From Leucobacter sp. UT-8R-CII-1-4 (lineage in GTDB: Bacteria > Actinomycetota > Actinomycetes > Actinomycetales > Microbacteriaceae), in NCBI RefSeq assembly GCF_030010235.1, contig NZ_JASCRS010000001.1, positions 248,001 through 312,000 of the forward strand: DNA of 64,000 nt. The letters run 5' to 3'. The position numbers and the translations under genes are program-made. Below, one piece after another: positions 28,539 to 62,600 of this stretch. Each line of letters starts with the position of its first letter. Within the stretch, counting starts at the first letter, position 1. The notes beneath the pieces are model-generated. The model was not told the DNA's origin and did not search any database. It worked only from the letters and a program-made list of their open reading frames with translations.

Positions 28539-28597
28539 GTGACGCTTCCCCAGCAGGCTGGGCATTTGGGGTACATGAGCTGCTGGGGAATCGTCAC
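28539..28597. repeat. 18-bp inverted repeat with 23-bp spacer
   Basis: GTGACGCTTCCCCAGCAG (28539-28556) pairs with CTGCTGGGGAATCGTCAC (28580-28597) with one mismatch in 18. It lies 36 bp after the amine-oxidase stop. It could be a terminator stem, although no U-run follows, or a two-part operator. Confidence 0.75.
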
Positions 28598-28628: not shown

Positions 28629-28676
28629 CCTCACTAGAAGAGAGTGCGGAACTCCGAGAAGTGACGCAAGAAGTCT
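28629..28676 (+). repeat. 48-bp element, copy 1 of an imperfect pair (upstream of the sigma gene)
   Basis: It runs from CCTCACTAGAAGAGAGTGC to GTGACGCAAGAAGTCT. The copy at 32944-32992 shares the two ends nearly intact (GAGAGTGC and GTGACGCA blocks), with small gaps in the middle. Both read in the plus direction and together they flank the sigma and glycine-rich protein genes. Confidence 0.6.
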
Positions 28677-28748
28677 CGACTGAGGCATTTTTTTCTGAGC
28701 AAAGAACGCTGTGCTATTGAGTCAAGATTGCTTCAAAAGTGACGCAGC

Positions 28749-28784: not shown

Positions 28785-28877
28785 TTGTCGCGAAAACGGG
28801 TGTATGCTCCCTCTAGATCCCAGTGTTTTGGGGAAAACACGCCACGGGAGAAATTCAGAGCTCAAAGGGGACCTGCT

Positions 28878-30719
28878 TTGGATGATTCTTCGATCAACCG
28901 AGCACAAGACACAAGCGATCGCACACTTCTCGGACAACTTCGCGAGGGCGACTCAACCGCCTACACCGAACTTTGGAGAAGGCATGTGGCGGCAGCGCTG
29001 ACGCTTGCACGTCGGATCGCGCCGACTCACGCCGAAGACTTAGTCTCTGACTCTTTTCTTGCTGTCTATCACCAGGTAACTGTTGCTGGCGGAGGGCCAG
29101 ACGCCTCGTTCCGCGCGTATCTTTTTACCGTGATGCGCAACACTGCAATGCGGTGGCAGCGCGAATCCGAACGGCTGCTCCCCGTCGAAGTCGACAATAT
29201 TGATGAGTTCTCCTCACAAAACGATGAAGACGCACTCGACCTCCTCACCCGTGAGACCACCTCAGCAGAGTTGCTTGCAGCGATGAACTCACTGCCCGAG
29301 CGCTGGCAGCGGGTGCTGTGGCTGACCGAGGTAGAAGAAGCCAGCCGCGGCCAGATTGCTCAAGAACTCGGCATCGGCACCAACGCGGTTTCTCAATTGC
29401 ACAGGCGCGCTCGCAGCGGGCTGCGAATGAACTGGCTTGATCAACAAATTCCGGCTTCCCTCCGTGACGATAATGTGCACGTCGCAAGCCTCTTGCCCAG
29501 GTTGATCGTTGATGGCAGAGCAAACGGAATCAGCAAAAAGGTCAACGCACATTTGCGTGCGTGTAAACAGTGTGCAGACGTCAACTTCGAGCTCCGCAAC
29601 TCCTACGCACACCTGCGAAAAGTCACCCTTTCGTTGGCTGGTTTCGCCGCACTCGCGGGCACAGTCCCAGCGATGGCACCCCTTGCTACGGTGGGGACCG
29701 CGGCCGGTATCGCTTCGGTGAGTGTGATCGGCGCAGCAATCGTTGCGAGTGTCGGCCTGGTCTTTGCCAGTGGTGCGGTGCCGCTCGATCTGGGCCCGAA
29801 CTCCCCCGGCAATGGAGCAACACCGTCTGACACGTCTTCCGGTCAACATGGCACGGCGGATCGCGAAAACGGTGCCACTTCAAACGGCTCAGGCGAGAAG
29901 AACTCGGAATCTACTTCTCAAAAACCTACCGACCCCGCAACCGCTTTGGGTCGCAAGAACGGTGATCAGTCAATCACCTCGGTTGCCTTTCTTGAGAACA
30001 ACTATGTACCGCCCCCGCGCACCCCGAGGCACCTCCCTGGGGGTGGCTCGCCAATGCCCAGCGGCAGCGAGGTAGCGCCGAAGATTCAACTCACGTCACA
30101 GCCTATTGCCCGAAACTATGTCGCACCGACCATTTCTGGCACGAGCAGCCCAGGGGCCGAAGTTCTTGTCGAAGTGACCAGGCCTTCTCTCTACGAGGGT
30201 CAAACAAACGCCCCAGAGGTTTTTGCAGCGACCACACAAGCGAGTGGCGCGTGGCAGTTCCGTTTTCAAGATCTTCTCTTTGAGACCCCCGGTGTCTACA
30301 ACTATCGAGTGTGGGCCCATACTGAGCAGGGCGATTCGGCCCCGCAACTTTCGACGTTCACGCTCGCATCTCCTGAAGTGAGCGGCCTTGAGTTTTCGGC
30401 GCCCTACGATCCAATTCCAATTGATGAGGCCAGCTCGAGTGGCGTGGTGTTTCAGGTGAAGGGGCCAGCTTTCGGCACCGTATGCCTCGACTCTGCATAC
30501 ACCGGGCAGGTTGCGCACATTGGTCTCGATCAAAACGGCCAGGCGATCCAGCGTCTTCGCATACCCGGAGCTGGCAGCTATTTTCTCGTTTTCCGGGTCT
30601 GCGAGGGCGACTATCGAAGCCCCGGTTTTGAAGTGTTTGTTGATGTAGAAGACCCCAACGGCCCAATCTTTGGGAACTATGGCCCGGGCTCGGCACTGCT
30701 TGAGGTTTCCAACGCCTAA
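28878..30719 (+). CDS. ECF sigma factor fused to zinc-finger, transmembrane and extracellular domains
   Basis: The 613-residue protein starts with an ECF sigma factor: region 2 (about residues 20-95, HAEDLVSDSFLAVYHQV) and region 4 (about 115-165, LPERWQRVLWLTEVEE, then GQIAQELGIGTNAVSQLHRR). Next comes a putative anti-sigma zinc finger H225-x3-C229-x2-C232, a hydrophobic segment at about 255-310, a Ser/Pro/Gly-rich linker and extracellular Ig-like modules (ISGTSSPGAEVLVEVTRP). I chose TTG at 28878 because AAAGGGG lies upstream and conserved sigma sequence begins soon after; the frame is open further upstream. As built, the sigma factor would be tethered to the membrane until released. Actinobacterial ECF groups with fused zinc-finger and membrane extensions are known; the extracellular part here is unfamiliar to me. 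Confidence 0.85.
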   Translation: MDDSSINRAQDTSDRTLLGQLREGDSTAYTELWRRHVAAALTLARRIAPTHAEDLVSDSFLAVYHQVTVAGGGPDASFRAYLFTVMRNTAMRWQRESERLLPVEVDNIDEFSSQNDEDALDLLTRETTSAELLAAMNSLPERWQRVLWLTEVEEASRGQIAQELGIGTNAVSQLHRRARSGLRMNWLDQQIPASLRDDNVHVASLLPRLIVDGRANGISKKVNAHLRACKQCADVNFELRNSYAHLRKVTLSLAGFAALAGTVPAMAPLATVGTAAGIASVSVIGAAIVASVGLVFASGAVPLDLGPNSPGNGATPSDTSSGQHGTADRENGATSNGSGEKNSESTSQKPTDPATALGRKNGDQSITSVAFLENNYVPPPRTPRHLPGGGSPMPSGSEVAPKIQLTSQPIARNYVAPTISGTSSPGAEVLVEVTRPSLYEGQTNAPEVFAATTQASGAWQFRFQDLLFETPGVYNYRVWAHTEQGDSAPQLSTFTLASPEVSGLEFSAPYDPIPIDEASSSGVVFQVKGPAFGTVCLDSAYTGQVAHIGLDQNGQAIQRLRIPGAGSYFLVFRVCEGDYRSPGFEVFVDVEDPNGPIFGNYGPGSALLEVSNA

Positions 30720-30856: not shown

Positions 30857-32806
30857 CTACGCGCGAGCTCGATTTCGGCGAATCGTTGCCGCTGCGAGCG
30901 GTGCACCGATCGCGACGAGCAGCGCAGCCGCTGCGGCCAGTCCCATCGGGGTTGCCGAGCCGGTGTTTGAGAGCACGGCAGGCTTCACTGTGGTGATCTC
31001 AACCGCTGACTTTTCGCTGTCCACGTCCATACCGCCGCGGGTCGCCGCAGATGCGGTTGCGGTGTTGGTGAGTGGTGTTCCGGTGAGGTCTCCAGCAACT
31101 GCCGTGTACTCAGCAGTGCAGGTCACCGAGTCACCCGGCTGCACAATCTCATCCGGGCAGACGGCAGCAGAGAGCTTGCCCTTGCCGCTGAAGCTCTGCT
31201 CAGCAATCGAAATGTCTCGCAACTCGATGTTGCCTGTGTTTGTCACCAGGAACGAGTACTTCACGACCTGACCAACATGCGTGACAGTCTTGGTGTCTGC
31301 GGTCTTCAGCAGGCCGAGCGACGGAGCCGCTGGTGCCACAATCGCGTCTGCCTCGTGTGAGCCGTTGCGGTCTGCAGTGCTTACGGTGTTCGTGACTGGG
31401 TCGGTGCCTCGAACAACGGTGTCGTACACAACAGTGACGCTCTGGCCAACCGCGAGACCGCGAGGTCGTTCGATTGGGTTGTCATTCGCATCTGAGATCT
31501 CGACCGTGTCGAACACTTCGATGCCTGCTGCCGCGATGGTTCCACCGATTGCAGGGACCGTGGTGTCCAGGCCATCTACTGAGACCACCTTGCCGCCAAC
31601 GGCGAGGTCGTCAACGAGAGTTACGGTATCGCCAATTGCCATTGCGTCGGCTCCGCTATTGGTGACGGTTACTGCGTAACGCACGGTGTCGCCGTCTTCG
31701 AAGACAGGTGTGCTGCGCACAAGTTCGCCGTCTTCATCGACTGCACCGACCACGCTCTTGGTGATTTCGAGGTTGTAATCGCACATGACCCACTCAAACG
31801 AAATGTACGCGGCGTGGGCTTTGCCGTCTTCGTCACGGTTCTTCGCGATTGAGAAGGTGTCCTGGTCGATCGAGCTTGAAACGAAGCTGGATCCGCCACC
31901 GCCGCCGCCACCAACGAAGTATTGCGCAGCACCACCAACGGCACCATCGGTCGAAGCACCGCCGCCGCCACCGAAGTAGCCTGCGCCGCCACCGCCACCG
32001 GTGTCTGGGCTGTTGTCGTTGCCGCCGTTGCCACCGGCAAAGTCAGTTCCCTTGAAACCGTTCCAGTTCCATAGCGCAACATCTGGGTCGGTGTTGCTGC
32101 GAGGGTTTGTGCCGCCAGCGCCGCCTTCGTCGCTGCCGCCGATGCCGCCACCTGGGAAGGTCGCCGGATCAGTGTTCCAGCCCGTGTCAAAACCGGTGGC
32201 GCCATCGCCACCGGGGAATACGAGGCCGTCGGCCACGCTGATCGCTGGGTAAACGCCCGCTCCGCCGTCACCGCCGGCTCCGCCGTCAGAAGTGTGTCCA
32301 CCACCGGTGCCACCTCCGCCAGCAGCGAGCAGTAGGCGTTCGCCGTTGACGCTGATTGACGAGTAGCCGCCACCGCCGCCACCGTTGTGTCCGCCGGTGC
32401 CACCGTTGCCGCCTGGTCCTGGGTGTCCACCAACGCCGCTATTGGTGCCTGCGAATCCAACGGTTCCGTGAATCAGACTGCCAGCGCCGAGCTGCAGTTT
32501 GGCGCTGAGTGTGCCACCGGCGCCGTTTGCACCGCGAAGCTCACCCGGATCTTCCGGGTCTGGTTCAGCATCACCGTCTGAAATTGCGAGGCCTCCGGGG
32601 GCGCCAGCAACCCAGACGTTGACTGCACAGACACCGTCCGGAACCACTTGGGTAAATGAACCGCCGCTGGTGATCAGGGTGGTGTCTGCGTCTTGAGCTG
32701 GTGCTGCCTGCGCAATCCCCGGCAGTGCAATTGGCAGGAGCAGGGCGAGCGCAGCACCTCCAACGATGAGCGGCCGCCTCGCCGCTTTGAGAGCTGGTGT
32801 AGTCAC
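30857..32806 (-). CDS. Glycine-rich cell-wall-anchored protein with DUF11 repeats and LSNTG sorting signal
   Basis: The 650-residue protein has a signal peptide (cleavage near AQA-AP, about residue 35), an N-terminal glycine-rich domain with many GGxGG runs (about 60-330; FTQVVPDGVCAVNVWVAGAPG and ISVNGERLLLAAGGGG resemble the ALK/LTK-type glycine-rich domain), two DUF11-like beta modules (VRYAVTVTNSGAD and VKYSFLVTNTGN), then LSNTG, a hydrophobic helix and a RRNRARA tail: a class of sortase substrate. I chose GTG at 32806 for its GGAAGGA ribosome-binding sequence; the frame is open upstream to 32938 without a better start. It is convergent with the sigma fusion gene, which may control it. 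Confidence 0.83.
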   Translation of the reverse strand: MTTPALKAARRPLIVGGAALALLLPIALPGIAQAAPAQDADTTLITSGGSFTQVVPDGVCAVNVWVAGAPGGLAISDGDAEPDPEDPGELRGANGAGGTLSAKLQLGAGSLIHGTVGFAGTNSGVGGHPGPGGNGGTGGHNGGGGGGYSSISVNGERLLLAAGGGGTGGGHTSDGGAGGDGGAGVYPAISVADGLVFPGGDGATGFDTGWNTDPATFPGGGIGGSDEGGAGGTNPRSNTDPDVALWNWNGFKGTDFAGGNGGNDNSPDTGGGGGAGYFGGGGGASTDGAVGGAAQYFVGGGGGGGSSFVSSSIDQDTFSIAKNRDEDGKAHAAYISFEWVMCDYNLEITKSVVGAVDEDGELVRSTPVFEDGDTVRYAVTVTNSGADAMAIGDTVTLVDDLAVGGKVVSVDGLDTTVPAIGGTIAAAGIEVFDTVEISDANDNPIERPRGLAVGQSVTVVYDTVVRGTDPVTNTVSTADRNGSHEADAIVAPAAPSLGLLKTADTKTVTHVGQVVKYSFLVTNTGNIELRDISIAEQSFSGKGKLSAAVCPDEIVQPGDSVTCTAEYTAVAGDLTGTPLTNTATASAATRGGMDVDSEKSAVEITTVKPAVLSNTGSATPMGLAAAAALLVAIGAPLAAATIRRNRARA

Positions 32807-32943
32807 TCTGTTTTCCTTCCATCGCGCCCGACCCCAATGCGAGGCAAGACAGTTGTCGATATCTAAGGAAGTAGTGACTGTTTGAGGCTGTGGGCCGCGC
32901 CAAAGCGACGCGTACCCACAGCGACTCAAGCCGCCCACTGCTC

Positions 32944-32992
32944 CCTCATCTAGATGAGAGTGCAGCTTGAGCGAAAGGTGACGCAGAAATCT
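32944..32992 (+). repeat. 48-bp element, copy 2 of an imperfect pair
   Basis: CCTCATCTAGATGAGAGTGC through GTGACGCAGAAATCT, matching the element at 28629-28676 over its whole length with short gaps. It contains the 12-bp palindrome TCATCTAGATGA and lies in the 204-bp gap between the monooxygenase stop and the wall-protein start, about 140 bp before that start on the minus strand. Confidence 0.6.
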
Positions 32993-59682: not shown

Positions 59683-62600
59683 TTACTTGAGCGAGCTCGC
59701 CCGCTTGCGTTTGCGCACAATCAAGCCCGCACCAAGGCCGAGCAGGAGCAGAGCGGTAATTGCAGCTCCGGTCATCGCCGTTCCACCCGTTAGGGCGAGT
59801 GTCGGAGGTTTAGGTACGGGATGTTCGGTGCATAGCTTGCTGTCTGGAACGCACACTGGCGGTTCGCCAGTGACGGTGACCACGTTGCCAAGGTCATGAT
59901 TTCCTTGTTTCGCGTAGTCCTTGACCTGCACCGTATAGGTCACGGTAACGGTCTTGCCTGACGCGACGGCACCAACGACACGAATTTTCGTGTTCGAAGT
60001 GGTCACGGTAACGTCCGGGTCAGAGGAAACCGCGGTTCCAATGAGGTCAGCATCATCGAGCACATCCGACATATCGTCGGTGTAGTCGATGCCTACTGGT
60101 GCCGCGTCAGGGTTTTTTGATCGGTTTACAAAGGTCAAGCTATAACTCACCTTCTGCCCTGGCTTCACTTCTGAACCGCTGGCAGGATTGCTTGTTTTTT
60201 CGACCTTCACGTCTGAGACGTGATTGACGGTGCACTTCGGATCTTCTTCCGGAGTGATCTCGCATTCTTGAGGCGGTTCTGTTCCGTGATCAACCACAAA
60301 GTTGGCAATTCTGTCGTCACCGCGCTCACCGTCGGCCTTGACTTTCACCTGGTAAGTGACGGTTTCGATCTGGCCCGGCTGGAGGACCCCGCTGATGGTA
60401 AAACGGCTGTCGACAACGTCAGTAACCGATATGTCTGCGCTCGATGCAACCGGTGCAGCCACAAGGTCAGCATCGTCGAGTACATCACTCAGCACATCGT
60501 CTTTCAGAAATTCCAGAGCCGCCTCTCCAACGTTTGCGAATCTTAGGGTGTAGGTGGCAGTTTCGCCTGCGCGAAGGGTTGATCCGTGCGCCGGATCGAC
60601 TGACTTACCGTACTCCAGCTCACCAACGTTGTGCACCGTTTCGCACCCTGCTGGAGTATTACAGAGCACAACATTGCGCAACACGTTATCGCCGCGCTCA
60701 CCGTCGGGTTTCACTTTCACCGTATAGGTCACGGTGGCGGTTTCGCCCGCTTCGAGCAGACCAGTCACGAGAATTTCACCGCTTGTACCAGAGCTGGCTC
60801 GCACGTCGGGTGAACTTGAAACAGCTGTCACGATAAGTTCGGCGTCATCAAGCACACTGCTCAAATTATCGATCGACGGCTTCCCATCAACGAGGATCTC
60901 ACCGCGCGCCTTTCCGGTGTTTGTGTAAGTGAGCGTGTAGGTAATCTCCTGGCCCGCCATAACGTCAGATCCGCTTTCAGGGTTTGAACTCTTTGTCACG
61001 GTGATGTTTGGCAAATCAGTGACCGTGCACATTGGGTCTGCCTCTATACACTCGATCGGAGGCGTCTTCCCTGGATCCACGACAAAGTTTGCGGCACTAT
61101 TGTTTCCACGCTCGCTGTCTGGTTTTACCGTTACCTCGTATCGAATCTGCGCTGAAGCACCGGCGGCCAACGTTCCACCAATTTCAAAGCGGTTGTTCTG
61201 TACAGCTGAAGCTGTAACCGAAGCTGTGTCAGAGTACGGGTCTTTTGTCAGGTCAGCATCATCAAGCACATCTGTCAGGATGTCCTCTTTCGACACCTTT
61301 GCTTCGGCTTTGCCCGTGCTTGTCGCCGTAATTGTGTACCGCAGCACTGTGCCCGCGGCCACTGGGTCTGTAGTTGCTTCAACGGTCTTTTTATATTCGA
61401 TTGCGGCAATCGGTGTAACAGTGCAGTTCGCTGCTTCGTTTTGCTTTGGTTTGCAATCTTCGGGAGGTAGTTCGCCAGATTCAACCACGAAGTTTGCTGC
61501 TTCGTCGTCACCCCGATCACCGTCGGGCTTCACAGTTACCTGATAAGTCACCCAGGCAGTTTCTCCCGGCGCGACAGAACCAGTAACCGAAATCACTTCG
61601 CCGTTGCGCACAGCGATCAGTCCACCAGTCGCCGTAGGTTCTGAAGTCACTTCGGCGTCATCGAGCACGCCGGTCATGATGTCCTCTGCGTCAACGACAG
61701 CATTTGCTTGCCCGTTGTTCTTGAAGAAGAGACTGTAGGTCAATACCGAGCCAGCAACTGTAGGTGTGGCTGAGGAAGACACTGTCTTCCACTTGCTGAG
61801 CAGTGGTCCAGGAATCGTTGTCGTGTCACACCGAAGTTCACCCGTTGCAACGTCAAGCTCGGGCACACAGGCGACATTACGAAGCTTCTGGTCGCCCTTT
61901 GCGTTGTAAACGACTGAGTAGGTAATTGTTGCGCTCTCATTCGCATCAAGCGCACCCTCCCATTTCAGCTTAGGATCGTCAAAAGTGACCGTTCCTGTCG
62001 ATGCCACGGCGTCGTTTGCGTATTCAGCATCGTCAAGCACTTCCGTCATGTCGTCGGTGAACTTGGCAGGGTTTTCCGCCGTGTAGGCACCAGGGCCAAC
62101 ATTCGTCACCGTGACCGTATAAGTCACGGGTGCGCCCGTTTTTGGCAACTCAGTTTGATCAGCCACCTTCGTGATCTTCAACGCAGGAAGTTCAATCAAG
62201 GTACACGAAACTTGATCAGAAGCCGGCTCACACTCGGGAGTTGGAGGTTCTGGTTCAGTCGGAGTACCCACGAACGAGACATTCTTTACCGCTCGATCGC
62301 CGCCAGCCTTGATCTTTACTGTGTACTTCAGTTCAACACTCTTGCCCACAGCAAGTGCGCCTGACCAGTTAAGTCGGGGCTCGCTGTAAGACAGCTCACC
62401 GGGTAGCGATGCGCTGGCATCATTTTGGTAATCAGCGTCGTCGAGCACTCCGCTCAAGTCGTCCCAAATCACTGCTGGGTTCTCCGCCGAATAGCTCACT
62501 TGGCCCGTATTTGTGGCCTTTACTGTGTATGAGACGGTGTCACCAGGTCGAACATCTACTGTGGCATCCGAAGTTTTTTCAATTTTGATCGAAGCAGGTT

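Follow-up and report, generated by a model that had tools for sequence, protein, structure and literature searches.

Our analysis of a 64,000-nucleotide stretch of Leucobacter DNA (hereafter the window) indicates that a fused ECF sigma factor is encoded there beside a gene for a cell-wall protein, and that the fused protein is probably a one-protein surface sensor which would be freed by proteolytic cleavage and would then activate the surface-protein gene that belongs to it. Part of the same probable reading is that the genus has several such paralogous sigma/wall-protein circuits, each dedicated to its own locus, of which this is one. We envisage that the sigma domain would be kept inactive at the membrane by a fused, zinc-type anti-sigma segment, and that two Ig-like domains outside the cell would act as the sensor. 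When the outside part met its signal, the protein would undergo regulated intramembrane proteolysis, and the freed sigma part would direct RNA polymerase to promoters of the form GCGTCAC-N16-ACTC, chiefly that of the convergent wall gene.

The sigma gene is a single intact reading frame on the plus strand (28878..30719), with a TTG start at 28878 and its stop at 30719, and it encodes 613 aa. An in-frame TTG at 28785 is also a possible start; the one at 28878 is favored because a likely ribosome-binding site, AAAGGGGA (28864..28871, plus strand, found by eye), lies 6 nt before it. Sigma2 and sigma4 occupy residues ~14-190 and are followed by a zinc region (~200-259), two hydrophobic spans (249-267 and 278-296), a low-confidence linker, Ig-like domains (~403-591) and a conserved C-terminal tail. 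A sequence-only reading of this DNA had proposed that an N-terminal ECF sigma factor, a zinc motif, a hydrophobic span and an Ig-like region are joined in one protein, and had named a frameshift between the parts as an outcome that would speak against this; the frame runs uninterrupted through all four. The sigma models of Pfam (Sigma70_r2, 31.9 bits against a cut-off of 24; Sigma70_r4_2, 33.5 bits against 25.7) and NCBIfam (sigma70-ECF, 74.9 bits against 42.9) all match the window protein above their cut-offs. The H225-x3-C229-x2-C232 motif is invariant in 6/6 of the closest rows and in 27/27 rows of a wider alignment, composed of the window protein and 26 homologues that we picked from 80 named loci (Leucobacter, Microbacterium, Leifsonia, Herbiconiux and MAGs); the loss of the motif among homologues, which the same reading had considered, did not occur. 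Pfam gives no zinc-finger match to the window protein at E ≤ 1, and the zinc region is known from its motif only.

The main hydrophobic span, residues 278-296, has a KD mean of 2.37, and the weaker span, 249-267, a KD mean of 1.62. An AlphaFold2 model of the window protein, built on the 27-row alignment (mean pLDDT 76.2, pTM 0.48), shows confident helices for the sigma part and the zinc segment up to about residue 259, low confidence over residues 262-351, the main hydrophobic span included, and two beta-sandwich domains at about 403-482 and 490-591. Searched with Foldseek, the model finds FN3/Ig tandems and bacterial adhesins at TM-scores that are low over the whole model, and a family profile matches MpAFP adhesin repeats (whole-chain E 2.9e-13), with none of the individual stretches passing by itself. 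These two beta domains and their FN3/Ig and adhesin likeness confirm the Ig-like modules that had been read from the sequence in the C-terminal region; Pfam's match of the window protein to Big_13, with an E of 0.1, falls short of significance. Two cysteines of the outer part, C536 and C575, are kept in every one of the 6 closest rows but not throughout the 27-row set. The second Ig domain is followed by a conserved aromatic C-terminal tail (window residues ~590-613) that resembles DPDAPIFGPWGP, while several relatives in the pilus-associated clade terminate near YFGDWTGW instead of in such a tail. A search against a defence-system library gave no match.

We infer that the two Ig-like domains of the window protein are located outside the cell. 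The number of membrane passes matters here, since two passes would leave the Ig domains inside. Positive-inside counting did not decide the topology: among 133 proteins the K/R balance favors N-inside in 60, is equal in 51 and speaks against it in 22.

The neighboring wall-protein gene (30857..32806, minus strand) is convergent with the sigma gene and lies ~138 bp past the sigma stop. By eye, a GTG start at 32806 is preferred over the first start of the open reading frame, at 32938. The encoded protein has a signal-peptide-like start, a glycine-rich part, DUF7507/DUF11 repeats (DUF7507, 99.1 bits) and a tail that is of the sorting type by pattern, consisting of LSNTG, a hydrophobic span and the basic tail RRNRARA. 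Although the LSNTG pattern fits, the protein is absent from the matches of the LPXTG_anchor HMM at E ≤ 10, as is the wall protein of a paralogous locus in the same genome (L009); of the other paralogous loci there, two (L011 and L012) have wall genes that pass this model and one (L010) has a wall gene below the cut-off. The genome has two sortases. A further wall-type gene lies in the window, where a 1405-aa frame on the minus strand has an LPXTG-anchor match over the cut-off at 59701-59802.

Is the pairing of sigma gene and wall gene more than chance? We defined a wall-type gene by an [LIVM]xxTG end, a hydrophobic span and a basic tail, and surveyed 65 stretches, namely the window, 4 others from its own genome and 60 around matches from a search of 40 genomes, mostly around the stronger matches and a few of them from other families. 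These stretches contain 69 family ORFs with a length of 230 aa or more, some of them near-copies and a few of them short and unfused, and 36 of the 69 have a wall-type gene within 500 bp; the count rises to 38 at 1 kb, 43 at 2 kb, 47 at 4 kb and 53 at 8 kb. As a control, 20 arbitrary 19.5-kb stretches from seven of the same genomes (390 kb) hold 2 wall-type genes, and 1 of 21 control genes in arbitrary stretches has such a gene within 500 bp. At the 80 named loci the fraction within 500 bp is 14/98 ORFs; 14 of these 98 are small ECF genes that lack the zinc motif (E 5e-7 or worse), and five of the loci repeat earlier ones. Of the 14 ORFs with a wall-type gene, 12 are in Leucobacter, Microbacterium or Leifsonia records, the other two being an Actinomycetota MAG (L154) and a Yinghuangia (L221); since the hits at named loci lie nearly all in these three genera, the pairing seems to be characteristic of the bacterial family to which the window belongs. 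A convergent wall gene is present also at L155, where its product is 49% identical to that of the window over 308 residues, and at L154, whose wall protein has no match to it at 1e-8. For 4 of the 5 closest relatives of the window protein (L043 and L045-L047) there is no wall gene in the stretch. The sequence-only reading had coupled the sensor to a wall protein, and this coupling gains from the 36/69 across relatives and from the promoter motif, described below, that the two gene classes share.

The same survey bears on the alternative that the window protein is an ordinary actinobacterial tethered ECF of the ECF52/53 kind, with a dispersed stress or envelope regulon and a wall neighbor that is incidental, which we consider unlikely. 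ECF48/52/53 do have the same architecture (PMC8999054), and the homologues surveyed from Nocardioides, Streptosporangium and Kocuria have no wall-type gene within 2 kb. Wall genes are also common in the window's genome, where the LPXTG model, a permissive one (over the cut-off in 9/14 control genomes), scores above its cut-off 31 times, or roughly once every 97 kb. However, the 36 of 69 family ORFs with a wall-type gene inside 500 bp greatly exceed both this density and that of the arbitrary stretches, and the promoter evidence argues against the alternative in two further ways. One 7-mer, GCGTCAC, tops both gene classes: upstream of sigma genes it ranks 1st of 6753 7-mers (39/102 against 128/1175 for other genes, p 1.3e-11), and upstream of wall genes 1st of 6707 (34/101, p 7.9e-9). 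Moreover, the 3.0-Mb genome holds only 3 exact matches to GCGTCAC-N16-ACTC, of which 2 are at the window locus and the third lies inside a predicted coding sequence. Taken strictly, by exact matches, the predicted regulon would be the window wall gene.

The motif is enriched as well before those wall genes whose upstream DNA is not at the same time upstream of a sigma gene (24/88 against 120/1153, p 2e-5). Among 8-mers CGCGTCAC is 1st for sigma genes and 2nd for wall genes; among 6-mers GCGTCA is 2nd for sigma genes and outside the top 12 for wall genes. The second box is set by its spacing: ACTC follows GCGTCAC after 16 bp in 41 of 665 sites (98 loci), against 0-6 for each of the other gaps from 0 to 44 and against 0/107 background sites. 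With near-copies removed it does so in 37 of 574 sites, at 25 loci, the mean of the other gaps being 1.8. For CGTGTTA-like boxes, gap 16 accounts for 8 sites and the remaining gaps up to 44 together for 3. GCGTCAC, a 16-bp gap and a second box together form a predicted ECF-like promoter. Few exact matches lie at the family loci of same-genus relatives, and most of the gap-16 sites come from the 80 named loci. A narrow -10 pattern (CTCAT, TCATTA or TATTAG) was rejected, being present before 0/65 and 2/42 sigma genes, 2/80 and 2/23 wall genes and 6/1223 other genes. As a genome-wide regulon GCGTCAC-N16-ACTC was rejected too, with 3 sites in the window's genome against 5 for the reversed control, and 50 against 92 over the 40 genomes (our own sum).

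In the window there are 2 exact matches, against a shuffled mean of 0.04. The first (32958..32984, minus strand) is the predicted promoter that reads into the wall gene. The second (28719..28745, minus strand) lies upstream of the sigma gene and points away from it, as does a third, related site with a 15-bp gap (28642..28667, minus strand); no site in the window is directed into its own sigma gene. Behind the two leftward sites there are only small frames, the longest of them having 68, 119 and 125 aa (the 125-aa one is truncated by the end of the stretch examined). At another locus (L176) a wall gene lies in a divergent position that matches these two sites. Two other features of this region are recorded here. 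A perfect 7-bp hairpin with a GGGG loop is located just before the sigma start (28823-28840); GGGG hairpins of at least 6 bp are found near 15/96 family sigma starts against 35/1280 other genes, and some may be unrelated. Just after the upstream gene, at 28539-28597, is an inverted repeat with 18-nt arms, 94% complementary, that contains GTGACGC and is perhaps a terminator.

Could the motif be read by a different protein? A second alternative, which we regard as rather improbable, holds that GCGTCAC-N16-ACTC is recognized by another sigma factor or is the operator of an unrelated regulator of surface genes. In its favor, of the 66 two-box sites in family loci 22 stand before a sigma or wall gene, 7 before another gene and 37 before no gene that our script found. 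On the other side, the fixed 16-bp gap is sigma-like, and paralogous loci of one genome differ in their -10 box, following the clade of the local sigma: the window locus has ACTC and its paralogous locus L010 has CGTGTTA. On a tree of 96 sigma domains, a quick tree with long-branch warnings in which 26/96 loci carry a label, the -10 class requires 2 changes, the minimum, against a shuffled mean of 10.7, and 0 of 200 shuffles is as low; the labelled loci number 14, 8 and 4 by class, and 70 of the 96 are unlabelled. Of the 14 ACTC loci, 13, the window included, fall in one 38-row clade, L073 being the exception in another clade. The agreement between -10 class and sigma tree could be shared descent, because sigma and promoter are inherited together. 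The reading we prefer, in which the freed window sigma would itself bind the motif, is consistent with these patterns.

The fused sigma factors form a family within which the window protein has close company. A search with the window protein finds matches in 38 of 40 genomes, its own counted, and many of the weak ones resemble ordinary ECF factors; the highest number, 19 with weak matches counted, is in a genome of the same genus (G024). The window's own genome has four further loci, of which three encode fused paralogues, L009 (567 aa), L010 (555 aa) and L011 (622 aa), and the fourth, L012 (8962-9723, minus strand), encodes a short one of 253 aa with neither TM span nor full zinc motif. Next to this short paralogue, a 290-aa protein that has a single hydrophobic span and a 924-aa LPNTG protein are encoded.

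In a sister clade, nine genomes encode a sigma factor whose C-terminus is formed by a pilin-like segment with a sortase-type signal (L011:8059-9927, minus strand, and L066, L080, L081, L082, L265, L266, L275 and L276). L011, the only chimera on which the SpaH/EbpB and LPXTG models were run, scores 54.7 bits with sigma70-ECF and 20.2 bits with the LPXTG anchor, above the respective cut-offs of 42.9 and 15.9; its residues 422-614 match the SpaH/EbpB major pilin model in the C-terminal portion of that model at 83.7 bits, short of the whole-protein cut-off of 95. The Pfam SpaA domain matches 2 of 5 chimeras, both below the cut-off, and a model built from five chimeras matches nearby pilins over about model positions 355-594 at 237-266 bits. 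Downstream of L011 are a 1353-aa SpaA-domain protein, then a 516-aa SpaH-type pilin (300.9 bits) and a class C sortase (242.2 bits). L011 is thus like the sortase-assembled SpaA/SpaH pilins in matching the SpaH/EbpB model and passing the LPXTG anchor model, and unlike them in that its pilin-like segment is fused to a sigma factor. Sorting-type tails are present in all nine, that of G719 by eye, and in the G719 match the search reported one in-frame TGA. Each of the seven genus genomes has a further pilin-matching frame ~5 kb away, and the two others have one at ~1.2 kb. Full-length chimera matches occur in 7/54 genus genomes and in 2 from another genus; counted together with the window's own genome, these two give 3/299 family genomes sampled, among the best candidates, at most 4 per genome, that were scored; a class-wide search at E ≤ 1e-60 found the chimera in the window's own genome only among 394, judged on the best 3 candidates per listed genome. 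An origin by frameshift or assembly artefact was dropped, as the open frames recur in several genomes. Since a sorting signal makes sense only outside the cell, these relatives favor, by analogy, an outside position for the C-terminal part; this falls short of proof for the window's own clade, and the window protein itself has no sorting signal.

More generally and more tentatively, we propose something that could well be so but that we hold short of probable: that in Leucobacter and its kin tethered sigmas serve as dedicated readers of the sortase-built surface, each driving a local surface-protein or pilus operon through GCGTCAC-N16, and that the sigma of one clade, a sortase substrate in its own right, is attached to wall or pilus, by which pilus assembly or pull would be read directly into transcription.

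How would the window sigma be set free? The window's genome has one site-2 protease homologue. Switching by conformation without cleavage, with a membrane-bound sigma at work and the zinc segment letting go on binding of an Ig ligand, is quite unlikely, for while the fused ECF41 and CorE are described as switched uncut (PMC8999054), proteolysis is expected for ECF48/52/53 (PMC8999054), IutY, the sole characterised membrane fusion named in the available part of that article, is cut by Prc and RseP, and the long low-confidence linker between membrane and Ig domains in the model would probably transmit conformation poorly. Release by proteolysis is the route that we favor. If our account is right, a single protein, a predicted promoter and one target gene next to it could be enough for a cell to sense the state of its own surface, and such a system can be put to the test. 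If they are real sortase substrates, the sigma-pilin chimeras would be transcription factors covalently tied to cell wall or pilus and, if this is true, a direct route to the way in which Gram-positive bacteria sense contact with a surface and the assembly of pili. The promoter code, with its constant -35, clade-specific -10 and 16-bp gap, would give natural matched sets for the study of ECF specificity.

How new is such a system? The sequence-only reading had named it as its best candidate for an undescribed surface-sensing system. The wall-protein pairing, the GCGTCAC promoter and the sigma-pilin chimera were not found in open-access full text (ECF classification papers lying outside this scope). 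The architecture and the idea of proteolysis, however, are already in print (also PMC10766802, PMC8103513 and PMC7406223, as far as their available parts go): as predicted from its sequence, the architecture of the window protein is one known in Actinobacteria, where ECF48/52/53 are described as membrane-tethered sigma factors with zinc finger, TM and outer domain, proteolytic release being proposed (PMC8999054, PMC5826349). ECF48 and ECF53, which have a C-terminal fusion with zinc finger, one to two TM helices and extensions of up to 400 residues (PMC8999054), resemble its predicted layout. They differ in that their named representatives come from Mycolicibacterium and Streptomyces, and the available part of PMC8999054 mentions neither wall pairing nor GCGTCAC. 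IutY of Pseudomonas putida (ECF243) likewise joins sigma and membrane anti-sigma in one protein that is activated by cleavage; it serves iron-starvation cell-surface signalling, and Ig-like outer domains go unmentioned for it in that same part (PMC8999054).

ECF41 provides a precedent for the promoter. It too has a fused regulatory extension and a bipartite promoter with GTCAC and a 16-bp gap, TGTCACA-n16-CGTC, which stands before the neighboring gene, the only target detected (PMC3426412, in the part available). Its extension, however, is SnoaL-like, as opposed to a zinc segment, span and Ig domains, and its -35 is TGTCACA as opposed to GCGTCAC; the window protein has no SnoaL-like match in Pfam at E ≤ 1, and has Ig-like parts instead. 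ECF52, represented by SCO4117 of Streptomyces coelicolor, shares with the window protein the ECF sigma, the zinc finger and, by prediction, the TM and outer domain, together with the proposal of proteolytic release (PMC5826349, in the part available). In ECF52 a proline-rich part is combined with a carbohydrate-binding module, whereas the window protein has two Ig-like domains; Pfam gives it no match to such a module at E ≤ 1, and the fold is Ig/FN3-like instead. SCO4117, finally, affects many developmental genes through another motif (PMC5826349), whereas the window sigma has a predicted local target, the gene of the wall protein beside it.
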